DNA of 64,000 nt from Lysobacteraceae bacterium (GTDB taxonomy: Bacteria; Pseudomonadota; Gammaproteobacteria; Xanthomonadales; Ahniellaceae): contig JAJTHZ010000025.1 of assembly GCA_021299185.1 (NCBI GenBank), positions 1 through 64,000 on the forward strand, in the 5' to 3' direction. The notes beneath the pieces are model-generated. The model saw only the letters and a program-made list of their open reading frames with translations, did no database searches and had not been told where the DNA came from. The translations under genes and the position numbers were made by a program. Below, one piece after another: positions 4,164 to 44,283 of the stretch; position 1 is the stretch's first letter; each line of letters opens with the position of its first letter.

Positions 4164-4207
4164 TTGTCAGTCTGGGTTGACTTCGATATTGTCAGGGCAT
4201 GTTGACA
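4164..4207 (+). promoter_or_regulatory. crtI promoter with tandem PpsR/CrtJ operators
   Basis: Two PpsR-type sites: 4165-4182 (TGT-N12-ACT, one mismatch) and 4190-4207 (TGT-N12-ACA, perfect), 7 bp apart. A sigma70-like promoter overlaps them: -35 TTGTCA (4164-4169), 17-bp spacer, -10 TATTGT (4187-4192). The predicted transcription start falls at about 4199, the crtI ATG itself. Both promoter hexamers are covered by operators, as expected for a repressor. The region is shared with idi on the other strand. Confidence 0.75.
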
Positions 4208-40179: not shown

Positions 40180-40189
40180 GCGACCGCGG

Positions 40190-40978
40190 ATGAGTGGCGC
40201 CACGCCCGTGCTGCCGATCCTGTTCGCACTCTTCGTGTGGTGGTTCAGCACGGGTGCGATCCTGTATCTGGACGGGCTGCCGCGCCGTACCCACCGCTGG
40301 ACGATGGCCGGCGCGAGCGCGCTCGCGCTGTTCGCGCTCTACGGCCTGCACGCCACCGCGCAGGACGGCGGCGTGGCGGCGGCCTACGCCGCGTTCACCG
40401 CCGCGATCCTGGTCTGGGGCTGGGTCGAGGTCGCGTTCCTGCTCGGCTGGGTGACTGGGCCGCGCACCAGCGCCTGCCCGTCCGGCGCACGCGGCTGGCG
40501 GCGCGCGGCGTTCGCCTTCGAGGCCATCCTGTGGCACGAATTCGCGCTGCTCGGCGGCGCGCTGCTGATCGCGCTGGTCACCTGGGACGCCAGCAACACG
40601 CTCGGGCTGTGGGCCTACCTGCTGCTGTGGGTCGCGCGCCTGAGCACCAAACTGAACCTGTTCCTCGGCGTGCGCAACCTCGGTGGCGAGCTGCTGCCGG
40701 AACACCTGCGCTACCTGCAGACCTATTTCACGCGGCGCCCGATGAACGGGCTGTTCCCGTTGTCGCTGGCCGGCGGCATCGCGGCGATGGTCCTGCTGTG
40801 GCAGGCCGCGGTGGCGGCGCCCGCCGAAGGCGGTGCGGTCGCGCTGTCGCTGCTGGCGACCCTGGCCACGCTGGCGGTGCTCGAACACCTGTTCCTGGTG
40901 CTGCCGATCAACTTCAACGCGCTGTGGGAGTGGGGCCTGTGGTCGCGGCGGGTGCAACCGCCGGCGGCCGGGACCTGA
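40190..40978 (+). CDS. puhE: Photosynthetic complex putative assembly protein PuhE
   Basis: PuhE, 262 aa, polytopic membrane protein with about seven helices. Conserved parts include FALFVWWFSTGAILYLDGLPR at the start, FEAILWHEFALL and the LPINFNALWEWGLWSR end. It is thought to modulate bacteriochlorophyll synthesis or complex assembly. ATG 40190 lies 10 bases after the acsF stop. Probably the last gene of the bchF operon; 40979-41077 shows no hairpin. Confidence 0.9.
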   Translation: MSGATPVLPILFALFVWWFSTGAILYLDGLPRRTHRWTMAGASALALFALYGLHATAQDGGVAAAYAAFTAAILVWGWVEVAFLLGWVTGPRTSACPSGARGWRRAAFAFEAILWHEFALLGGALLIALVTWDASNTLGLWAYLLLWVARLSTKLNLFLGVRNLGGELLPEHLRYLQTYFTRRPMNGLFPLSLAGGIAAMVLLWQAAVAAPAEGGAVALSLLATLATLAVLEHLFLVLPINFNALWEWGLWSRRVQPPAAGT

Positions 40979-41077
40979 CCGCATGCGTGCGCGACGACAC
41001 CCACCCGTGAGGACGCGCCGCGATCGCACGCGCGTTCCCGCGTCCCGCAATCCGCAACCCAACGGAGGCAACGGTCC

Positions 41078-42136
41078 ATGAGCACCCCCATCGTGCGCTT
41101 GTACGCCGACGAGGCGAAGGCCCGCCAGGCGCTGAATGCCCTGCGCGAGGAACGCTTCGCAAAGGACGACGTCAACCTCCTGCTGCCGGCGCAGGCGGCC
41201 GCGGCAGATGCATCGGATTCGCTGGAGTCGCTGGTGTCGGCGATCCTCGGCGGCAACGTCGCGCGTGCGCGGGCGAAAACCATCGCGGACGCCGTGCGCG
41301 GCGGGCAGGCGATGGTCGCGGTGCGCGCCGCATGGGGCCTCGCCGGGGCCGCGATCCGCGTGCTCGACGACCACGGTCCCGCGTCGAACCCGTTGCCACA
41401 GTCGGGCGAGTCCGTGGTCGGATGGGACGGCGCCGCGCCGCTGTCGTCCGCGCTGCGCATGCCGACGCTGATGCGTCGCGCGCCGATGCCGTTCTCCAAC
41501 CTGTTCGGCCTGGAAGACCTCGCGCCGAGCAAGCCGATCATGGGGGGCTTGCGGGACCACCGATTCACGGTGTTCGGCCAGCCGCGGCTGAGCCGCAATC
41601 CGGCGCCGCTGTCGTCGCTGTTCGGGCTCGGCACCCTCACTGCCGGCGGGCGCGCCCTGATCGGCGGGTTGGTCGACCACGCGTTCTACTTTTTCGGCAG
41701 CCCGCGGCTCAGGCGCGACGCCGCACCGCTCTCGCGCATGCTCGGCTGGCCGCTGCTCAGCCGCGGCGCCCGTGCGCGGACCTGGGATGACGCCGCGCCG
41801 CTGTCGTCGGCGCTCGGCTGGCGTCCGCTGGTGCGGCCGGAGGACGTCGGCCGGACGCGCGCGCCGGTCGGCCCGCACCGGACGCCGGCCTTCGGCGGCC
41901 TGGTCAGCCACCGGTTCGCGCTGTTCGGCTCGCCCGGGCTGAGCCGCAAGGCGGCGCCCTTTTCGGGGCTGTTCGGTCTGCCGACCCTCACGCGCGGGGG
42001 AAAACCGTTCTTCGGCGGTTTGTCGAGCCACGGCTTCTATCTGTTCGGCAAGCCGAGCCTCAGTCGCAACCCGGCCCCGCTGTCGTCCCTGCTCGGACTC
42101 GGAACGCTGCGGCGCAGTTCGGTCGACGGTGACTGA
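41078..42136 (+). CDS. Undescribed repeat protein beside the LH2 genes
   Basis: 352-aa protein, function unknown. Residues 4-100 look like a YflT/'general stress protein 17M'-type ferredoxin-like domain (VRLYADEAKARQALNALREERF, then GQAMVAVRAA...IRVLDDHG). Residues 120-344 consist of about 40-residue repeats rich in Gly, Phe, Leu and Pro; the core reads APLSSLFGLGTL, then GGL, then HxFxxFGxPxLSR. There is no signal peptide or clear membrane helix; the aromatic/Gly pattern suggests an amphipathic or membrane-surface structure. GGAGG precedes ATG 41078. It sits between puhE and the pucBA operators, so a photosynthetic role, perhaps structural, is inferred only from place. Confidence 0.8.
   Translation: MSTPIVRLYADEAKARQALNALREERFAKDDVNLLLPAQAAAADASDSLESLVSAILGGNVARARAKTIADAVRGGQAMVAVRAAWGLAGAAIRVLDDHGPASNPLPQSGESVVGWDGAAPLSSALRMPTLMRRAPMPFSNLFGLEDLAPSKPIMGGLRDHRFTVFGQPRLSRNPAPLSSLFGLGTLTAGGRALIGGLVDHAFYFFGSPRLRRDAAPLSRMLGWPLLSRGARARTWDDAAPLSSALGWRPLVRPEDVGRTRAPVGPHRTPAFGGLVSHRFALFGSPGLSRKAAPFSGLFGLPTLTRGGKPFFGGLSSHGFYLFGKPSLSRNPAPLSSLLGLGTLRRSSVDGD
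41435..42109 (+). repeat. Coding region of the 40-residue repeats
   Basis: Repeat units, by residue: partial 120-131; full 137-175, 176-215 and 293-332 (39-40 residues each); one with an insertion, 240-292; partials 216-239 and 333-344. Shared elements are AP-x-S-x-LFGL-x-TL, a GG-L turn, H-x-F-x-x-FG and P-x-LSR. Units differ enough at DNA level that they look old, not a recent slippage product. Confidence 0.8.
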
Positions 42137-42149
42137 TGAGGCTGCTGAC

Positions 42150-42203
42150 TGTCAACTCGCAATGACACGGCGTATTGACGCGCCAGGTTGACACTCCTAG
42201 GAT
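42150..42203 (+). promoter_or_regulatory. puc promoter with tandem PpsR/CrtJ operators
   Basis: 42150-42167 is a perfect TGT-N12-ACA; 42176-42193 is TGA-N12-ACA (one mismatch); the gap is exactly 8 bp. Promoter -35 TTGACG (42175-42180), 17-bp spacer, -10 TAGGAT (42198-42203) overlaps the second site. The leader to pucB is then about 200 bases; I see no gene in it. LH2 synthesis should be repressed by PpsR under oxygen. Confidence 0.75.
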
Positions 42204-42410: not shown

Positions 42411-42572
42411 ATGTCCAATCTGGACGATCCGAACCGCGTGTGGCCCACCGGCCTCACCATCGCGGAGTCCGAGGAGCTGCACAAACACGTGATCGACGGC
42501 TCGAGGGTGTTCTTCCTCATCGCGCTGATCGCTCACATCCTCGCCTACGCCTACACCCCGTGGATGGGCTGA
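42411..42572 (+). CDS. pucB: Light-harvesting 2 beta subunit
   Basis: LH2 beta polypeptide, 53 aa. [21 protein letters not shown] and [16 protein letters not shown] match B800-850 beta chains: the His in LIAHILAY ligates the B850-type bacteriochlorophyll and the N-side His (EELHKH) is near B800. It ends TPWMG, not WRPW as LH1 beta. GGAG lies upstream of ATG 42411. Overall pattern and the pucA and pucC neighbours make it LH2, not a second puf copy. Confidence 0.92.
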
Positions 42573-42585
42573 ACAGGAGAACGTC

Positions 42586-42732
42586 ATGAACCAAGGTCGA
42601 ATCTGGTGTGTGGTCAAGCCGACCGTGGGCCTGCCGTTGTTCCTCGGCACGGTGCTGGTGATTTCGCTGCTGGTCCACTACTCGATCCTCAGCAACACGG
42701 CGTGGTTTCCGGCGTTCTTCCAGGGCGGTTGA
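42586..42732 (+). CDS. pucA: Light-harvesting 2 alpha subunit (Phe44-Phe45 type)
   Basis: LH2 alpha polypeptide, 48 aa, too short for many gene finders. It aligns without gaps to the well-known Rhodoblastus acidophilus alpha chain: [12 protein letters not shown] start, ligand His31, WFPA at 40-43. At 44-45, where B850 antennae carry Tyr-Trp that hydrogen-bond the acetyl groups, it has Phe-Phe, as in blue-shifted B800-820 forms (Phe-Leu). The chain ends at Gly48 without the usual charged tail. GGAG lies 8 bases before ATG 42586, 13 bases after pucB. Confidence 0.93.
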
Positions 42733-42849: not shown

Positions 42850-44283
42850 ATGAGCGCCTTCGGTAGCCGCTTGGTCCGCACGTGGGTCGAACTCGGCCCG
42901 CGCTTCCTGCCGTTCGCCGACGTGGCGACGGCCGACCTGCCGCTGTCGCGCCTGCTGCGCCTGTCGCTGTTCCAGGTGTCCTGCGGCATGGCGATGGTGC
43001 TGCTGGTCGGCACCCTGAACCGGGTGATGATCGTCGAACTCGGCGTGCCGGCCTCGCTGGTCGCCGTGATGGTCGCCCTGCCACTGGTGTTCGCGCCGTT
43101 CCGCGCGCTGATCGGCCACCGCTCCGACACCCATCGCTGCGAACTCGGCTGGCGCCGCGTGCCCTTCATCTGGAAAGGCACGCTGCTGCAGTTCGGCGGG
43201 TTCGCGATCATGCCGTTCGCGCTGCTGGTGCTGGCCGGCAAGGGCCAGGCGCAGCATGCACCGGTCTGGCTCGGACTCGGGTCGGCCGCGCTGGCCTTCC
43301 TGCTCGTCGGTGCCGGCGTGCACATGGTGCAGACCGTGGGGCTGGCGCTCGCCACCGACCTGGTGCCGCAGGAGTCGCATCCCAAGGTCGTCGGGCTGAT
43401 GTACGTGATGCTGCTGGTCGGCATGATCGGCAGCGCGCTGGTGTTCGGCGCGGCGCTGGCCGACTTCACGCCCGGGCGCCTGGTGCAGGTGATCCAGGGC
43501 GCCGCGGTGGCGACGATGGCGCTCAACGTGATCGCGCTGTGGAAACAGGAGACGCGACGACCGCGCCACGGCGCGCCGCTGCCGGCCCCCGATCCGTCCT
43601 TCAGCGAGTCGTTCGCGCGTTTCTGCGCCGGCGACCACGTGGTGCGCCGCTTGCTGGCGATCGGCGTCGGCACGATGGCGTTCGCAATGGCCGACATCGT
43701 GCTGGAACCTTACGGCGGCCAGGTGCTGGGCCTGCCCGTCGCGGCGACCACCCAGTTGACGGCCTTGCTCGCCTTCGGCGGCGTGCTCGGCTTCACGCTC
43801 GCCTCGCGCGTCCTCTCTCGCGGCGCCGACCCCTTCCGCATGACCCAGGCCGGCGCGCTGATCGGCCTGCCCGGCTTCGCCGCCATCATCCTCGCCGCGC
43901 CGGCTGACTGGCCCGCACTGTTCCTCGCCGGCAACTTCCTGGTCGGGTTCGGCGGCGCGCTGTTCGGCCACGGCACCTTGACCGCGACGATGAACCTCGC
44001 GCCGCGCGAGCAGGCCGGGCTGGCGCTCGGCGCCTGGGGTGCGGTGCAGGCGACGGGTGCCGGGCTCGGCATCGCGCTCAGCGGCGTGTTGCGCGACCTG
44101 GTCAACGCGTTCAGCGATCCGGCACAGGGACCATGGGGCCTCGTGCCGGCAGCCTCGGGTTACCTCTCGGTCTACGCCGTCGAGATCATGCTGCTGCTGC
44201 TGACCCTGGTCGCGGTCGCGCCGCTGGTGCGCGGCGCGCGGAGCCGCGTGCGCCGCCCCGAAGCCGCGACGCCGCAGGCCTGA
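42850..44283 (+). CDS. pucC: LH2 assembly protein PucC (BCD family)
   Basis: PucC, 477 aa, 12 predicted membrane helices, required for LH2 assembly in Rhodobacter. Typical blocks: ELGPRFLPFADVATADLPLSRLLRLSLFQVS, LNRVMIVELGVPASL, HRSDTHRCELGWRRVPFIWKG. Closest in the window to LhaA. Start taken at ATG 42850; GTG 42805 is an alternative that would place the start inside the upstream inverted repeat. pucBAC is a complete LH2 operon; def follows after 4 bases. Confidence 0.92.
   Translation: MSAFGSRLVRTWVELGPRFLPFADVATADLPLSRLLRLSLFQVSCGMAMVLLVGTLNRVMIVELGVPASLVAVMVALPLVFAPFRALIGHRSDTHRCELGWRRVPFIWKGTLLQFGGFAIMPFALLVLAGKGQAQHAPVWLGLGSAALAFLLVGAGVHMVQTVGLALATDLVPQESHPKVVGLMYVMLLVGMIGSALVFGAALADFTPGRLVQVIQGAAVATMALNVIALWKQETRRPRHGAPLPAPDPSFSESFARFCAGDHVVRRLLAIGVGTMAFAMADIVLEPYGGQVLGLPVAATTQLTALLAFGGVLGFTLASRVLSRGADPFRMTQAGALIGLPGFAAIILAAPADWPALFLAGNFLVGFGGALFGHGTLTATMNLAPREQAGLALGAWGAVQATGAGLGIALSGVLRDLVNAFSDPAQGPWGLVPAASGYLSVYAVEIMLLLLTLVAVAPLVRGARSRVRRPEAATPQA

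Follow-up and report, generated by a model that had tools for sequence, protein, structure and literature searches.

A probable LH2-dedicated accessory protein with a 16-residue repeat tail, encoded at the puc locus

Few membrane complexes have been studied as thoroughly as LH2, a light-harvesting antenna of bacteria. A ribbon-like extra subunit of this antenna was first reported in 2022, by cryo-EM and in one genus (PMC9618040). In the window, by which we mean the whole stretch of 64,000 nucleotides analysed here (contig JAJTHZ010000025.1 of a Lysobacteraceae bacterium), a gene lying between puhE and the LH2 genes encodes a protein with a repetitive C-terminal tail. This arrangement raises the question of whether the protein is a further component dedicated to LH2 and, if so, how it might act on the antenna.

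The open reading frame given in an earlier note on this DNA was confirmed together with a ribosome-binding site (Table 1), and the window genome holds one copy of the gene. Profile matches verified the neighbours named there, namely puhE, the LHC antenna pair and PucC; the gap from puhE to the repeat-tail gene is about 100 bases, and that from the repeat-tail gene to pucB is 275 bases. Within the latter gap lie both a TGTN12ACA motif and a promoter-like sequence, in agreement with the claim that the gene lies 5′ of the puc promoter. Given that the gene precedes this putative promoter, it is probably outside the puc transcript in the window. PpsR/CrtJ-like TGTN12ACA sites numbered 11 across the window against 4.1 expected, including those at positions 4190, 9405, 23981 and 42150. 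In the close pair of relatives G787 and G788, dN/dS was 0.068 over the head region and 0.058 over the tail; these low values indicate that the reading frame is protein-coding, with the tail under as much constraint as the head.

Table 1 Features of the repeat-tail gene and its surroundings (positions within the window).
Feature	Position	Strand	Evidence
puhE (DUF3623), directly upstream of the repeat-tail gene	40184..40978	+	PF12291, E 2e-97
GGAGG ribosome-binding site, 9 bases 5′ of the ATG	41064..41068	+	sequence
LH2-locus repeat-tail protein gene, 352 aa, ATG to end of stop codon	41078..42136	+	ORF/translation; relatives adjoin puc genes elsewhere
Predicted ferredoxin-like domain at the N terminus (residues 1-106), acidic, distantly YflT-like	41078..41395	+	AlphaFold, structural matches, PF11181 in relatives
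Repeat tail (residues 118-352), basic with a net charge of +19	41429..42133	+	autocorrelation, charge, pLDDT
Tail motif GAAPLSSALRMPTL	41429..41470	+	motif count
Tail motif APMPFSNLFGLEDL	41480..41521	+	motif count
Motif pair FGQPRL / NPAPLSSLFGLGTL, 16-residue step	41573..41638	+	
Motif pair FGSPRL / DAAPLSRMLGWPLL, 16-residue step	41693..41758	+	
Tail motif DAAPLSSALGWRPL	41789..41830	+	motif count
Motif pair FGSPGL / KAAPFSGLFGLPTL, 16-residue step	41924..41989	+	
Motif pair FGKPSL / NPAPLSSLLGLGTL, 16-residue step	42044..42109	+	
PpsR/CrtJ-like site TGTN12ACA, TGTCAACTCGCAATGACA, between repeat-tail gene and pucB	42150..42167	+	motif search
Promoter-like site TTGACG-17-TAGGAT, putative puc promoter	42175..42203	+	motif search
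pucB, LH2 beta	42411..42572	+	PF00556, 38.5 bits
pucA, LH2 alpha, F44-F45	42586..42732	+	PF00556, 45.6 bits
pucC, antenna assembly protein	42850..44283	+	PF03209, E 1e-149

Subsequently, to delineate the repeat unit, we quantified the periodicity of the tail by BLOSUM autocorrelation. The earlier note had described at least four repeats of 40 residues. In the window tail, lag 40 (z = 9.0), lag 16 (5.0) and lag 24 (4.6) all exceeded the 99% maximum of shuffled controls (z = 3.6), and the z values summed over 12 family members reached 65 at lag 16 and 52 at lag 32. The repetition is thus far above chance, but its basic unit is 16 residues; the repeat of 40 combines a step of 16 with one of 24 and is a local elaboration of the 16-residue unit. 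In relatives, this unit reads [ND]PxPLSSxxGxxxL / FGxPLLS, the cleanest 16-residue case being that of G653 (NPAPLSSRFGMSTLTD / NPAPLSSKVGMSTLTD / NPAPLSSKVGMGVLKD / NPAPLSDKAGIDVLTS), and its serines are conserved. The window tail alternates steps of 16 and 24 residues and contains seven PLSS-type, four FGxPxL and four GGLxxHxF motifs; the Gly/His-rich GGLxxHxF stretch sits in the longer step and is peculiar to the window member.

The AlphaFold model of the window protein showed a head with strands and helices in ferredoxin-like order (residues 1-106, pLDDT of about 80), followed by pLDDT values below 50 at residues 107-331, and a second family member was likewise modelled with a folded head and a tail lacking confident structure. 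Since the alignments were only three sequences deep, the missing predicted structure of the tail is weak evidence. A beta-solenoid, prompted by the regular repeat, was rejected because neither model has strands in the tail, the alignments being shallow in both cases. All 17 sequences combine an acidic head with a basic or neutral tail, and none has a segment of sufficient hydrophobicity to form a membrane helix. PDB sequence searches with the tail, the family profile and the relatives returned only chance matches; PHROGs gave two weak single-member matches, and plasmid tblastn and viral contigs gave none.

The window protein matched no family in Pfam or NCBIfam, which agrees with the earlier statement that it belongs to no named family. 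The YflT-type assignment of its head, by comparison, held weakly and through relatives: PF11181 (YflT) was matched by three of seven family members (best E 4e-4), the printed scores of 21.9 bits for G788 and 19.6 bits for G975 falling below the curated Pfam cut-off of 26.2 bits. For the head, structure comparison returned generic folds of the ferredoxin-like type, among them ActD, PII and CutA, at Z no higher than 6.7; such values (Foldseek E above 0.4, Z below 8) fit many unrelated ferredoxin-like folds, and the matches thus say little about function. Some bare head domains outside photosynthesis are YflT-type stress proteins, including the stand-alone relative in G830, which scored 34.7 bits against PF11181 and thus exceeded the cut-off. 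A glycine-rich insert sets the stand-alone proteins in G830 and G836 apart from the repeat-tail heads, and the family as a whole differs from YflT proteins in its added tail. These stress-type relatives could suggest that the repeat-tail protein is itself a YflT-type general stress protein, one which modulates LH2 in stressed cells and uses its tail simply for anchoring. We consider this highly improbable, as the tail is constrained like the head and is the part specific to the LH2 locus.

We then asked how the protein is distributed among phototrophs. Among 398 genomes of the window's order, the repeat-tail protein was found in five and reaction-centre genes in 11. The five carriers are exactly those phototrophs that have a second antenna gene pair (four antenna genes each); the six other phototrophs have two antenna genes each (LH1 only) and lack the protein. 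In a second order (48 genomes, around G653), seven genomes carry the protein and ten have antenna genes; pucBA was present at the locus in six of the seven carriers, the seventh running off the contig end, and the three LH1-only phototrophs again lacked the protein. A class sample of 369 genomes contained it only in the window genome and G653; it was absent from G421, G503 and G515, which have the LH1 pair only, and from G502 and G716, which have scattered extra antenna genes. The association between the repeat-tail protein and an LH2-type set yielded a Fisher p of 7e-7 over 23 phototrophs, or 2e-5 when the two unlike multi-antenna genomes were counted against it, the species not being independent in either calculation. 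No genome without antenna genes in the order and class samples carried the tail. The co-occurrence with puc genes anticipated by the earlier note is therefore strict in these samples, and the refuting condition that it had set, widespread homologues in non-phototrophs, did not overturn it: every tail found belonged to a phototroph, while bare heads elsewhere include ordinary stress-type proteins. A universal LH2 partner was ruled out, since neither G502 nor G716, despite their extra antenna genes, has an adjacent pucBA-pucC set or the repeat-tail protein.

Antenna genes were counted in the order and class genomes, and the phylum sample of 289 genomes was searched for repeat-tail relatives. This search identified one full-length relative, in G821, at the same type of locus; by kinship, G821 and three genomes with more divergent relatives (G975, G999 and G1028) belong to another class of the phylum, presumably the Alphaproteobacteria. 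A scan of genome contigs with the window protein alone returned no match; with two artificial motif-variant rows it returned two loci, a result that used patterns outside the core motif and is not a census. Independently of our samples, Congregibacter and relatives (Halieaceae) have been reported to carry pucAB (PMC2654016, PMC3679898).

Full-tail loci, in which a head with a PLSS/FGxPxL tail is encoded beside pucC in a phototroph, as in the window, numbered 14 in 13 genomes; all 14 adjoin pucC, and at least 12 include pucBA. Gene order varied. The tail gene precedes pucB-pucA-pucC in the window, the first copy of G023, G776 and G780, and it lies between pucA and pucC in G039, G072, G157, G653, G787, G788 and G789; G821, with pucA directly before the tail gene, falls into the latter group. 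The order tail gene-pucC occurs in the second copy of G023 and in G799, which ends at the contig edge. The second copy of G023 (L006 9284-11567) stands next to a further pucC, and the sequence inspected around it contains no pucBA; it may represent an antenna locus that has decayed or become specialised. Collectively, the co-occurrence with puc genes and the absence of a named family support the earlier suggestion of a candidate for a new photosynthetic component, and we consider it very likely that the repeat-tail protein serves the peripheral antenna LH2 as a dedicated accessory protein, its gene being an additional member of the pucBA-pucC module.

The constancy of pucC bears on what kind of accessory protein this is. 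PucC is a polytopic membrane protein unrelated in sequence to the repeat-tail protein, yet it is the most constant neighbour, more so than pucBA, as the second copy of G023 illustrates. Moreover, distances among the tail proteins track those among the PucC proteins (Mantel r 0.76), a correlation that shared species history alone could yield. Both observations would suit an assembly factor that uses its repeated tail motifs to hold PucC, or newly made alpha and beta chains, and so brings several assembly machines or subunits together for building a ring without entering the finished antenna. However, PucC-type proteins support antenna assembly where no such tail protein has been described (PMC4949548), and we regard an assembly factor as unlikely.

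In G975, G999 and G1028, the divergent head-domain relatives are encoded right behind pucB-pucC (pucBAC). Their tails are otherwise very divergent but keep LSxxFGxPTLxxR-type stretches. Two tandem head-domain relatives lie behind pucC in G1028 (L157 9171-11168). One G1028 relative has a 25-residue repeat (z = 18.9) of the type RMANWPIPLISRRKPADNFAFPRHA; together with the steps of 16 and 24 in the window, its steps of 25 indicate that a period of 16 is not universal. The position directly downstream of pucC recalls the little-studied PucD and PucE proteins of Rhodobacter capsulatus, on which Tichy et al. 1989 is reportedly the original paper. In that organism the cluster is pucBACDE, with pucDE after pucC (PMC9231093, PMC4634722). 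By gene position, the repeat-tail protein could be the gammaproteobacterial form of PucD/PucE, a reading compatible with the others. Both are products of extra LH2-operon genes, and the same-head proteins of G975, G999 and G1028, with their preserved stretches, occupy the pucDE position. Nevertheless, these tails are very divergent, only these three genomes have the gene directly downstream of pucC, and in the window it lies before pucB; we hold the equivalence possible, though somewhat doubtful.

For the mode of action, LH2-gamma of Rhodopseudomonas palustris (RPA1495; PDB 7zcu, 7zdi, 7ze3 and 7ze8) offers the closest analogy. It forms an extended in-plane ribbon near the cytoplasmic side, around six of the nine alpha-beta pairs, and is built of repeats that each bind one pigment and add to one alpha-beta pair (PMC9618040). 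In the deposited chain (7zcu S), the repeats recur every 16 residues, at 4, 20, 36, 52, 68 and 84, with the core SGxPLIL; the repeat is printed as 15 residues in PMC9618040. The repeat-tail protein resembles LH2-gamma in its 16-residue tandem repeat, its Gly-x-Pro-Leu-(Ile/Leu) core, the conserved serine in each unit, the absence of regular secondary structure and the association with LH2. LH2-gamma, in contrast, is a polypeptide of 97 aa that lacks a head, and reports of it are confined to Rhodopseudomonas. Family and unit profiles run against PDB chains did not return 7zcu, and the similarity of the units gave a column-permutation p of 0.08. As homology to LH2-gamma was not found, the repeat-tail protein may share the mode of action of gamma without being a gamma polypeptide itself. 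Of the two, gamma is the one for which attachment to the ring and ligation of pigment have been shown; by analogy, the repeat-tail protein may bind the ring and might also ligate pigment.

We tentatively propose, at somewhat less than even confidence, that the repeat-tail protein is an LH2 accessory subunit whose tail forms an extended ribbon on the ring, with one 16-residue unit per alpha-beta pair. The head would remain cytoplasmic as a folding, oligomerisation or sensing unit, while the basic, proline-rich tail would extend along the cytoplasmic rim of the ring, each unit docking on one alpha-beta pair. Such docking would stabilise the ring and could add extra pigment, as gamma does in Rhodopseudomonas palustris. 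Against the ribbon weigh the lack of homology to gamma, the missing head of gamma, the departures from a steady 16-residue step in the window member and the G1028 relative, the second copy of G023 with its missing pucBA, and the position of the window gene 5′ of the puc promoter. The tail, basic and structureless, carries numerous short motifs set apart from one another, and their number and spacing differ between species; it could instead belong to an array organiser, a multivalent linker whose motifs bind different LH2 rings or the membrane to order arrays or curvature. Most members, however, keep rather strictly to the 16-residue register, as would be expected more of a fixed ring lattice than of a floppy linker, and we think such an organiser has little chance of being the right description. 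Among the three roles that the earlier note had offered, antenna-ring binding is the best supported, through the likeness to LH2-gamma; membrane coating and the shaping of intracytoplasmic membrane received no specific support.

The LH2 alpha sequences also allow a prediction of antenna type. Relatives have FF, FW or VF at positions 44 and 45, and G821 has YW. In the B800-850 LH2 alpha of Rbl. acidophilus these positions are presumably Y44-W45; with F44-F45 in their place, the window antenna is predicted to be of the blue-shifted B800-820 type. A tie between the repeat-tail protein and such an antenna was ruled out, as G821, with Y44-W45, still carries the gene.

The repeat-tail gene marks one type of pucBAC module, and its product may reveal what the poorly understood extra puc genes encode. 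If it is a form of PucD/PucE, the protein would already have a name in another lineage, whatever its mechanism. At its broadest, the ribbon proposal would make it a second, independently evolved ring-belting subunit, in which a ribbon with a sensor-like head wraps LH2 across several lineages of two proteobacterial classes, one 16-residue unit to each alpha-beta pair, and adds pigment or fixes ring size; this is an idea to which we assign a low probability. Should such a distinct repeat protein prove to belong regularly to the LH2 module in two classes, extra ring subunits would be common rather than an oddity, and repeat length would become a testable ruler for ring geometry.
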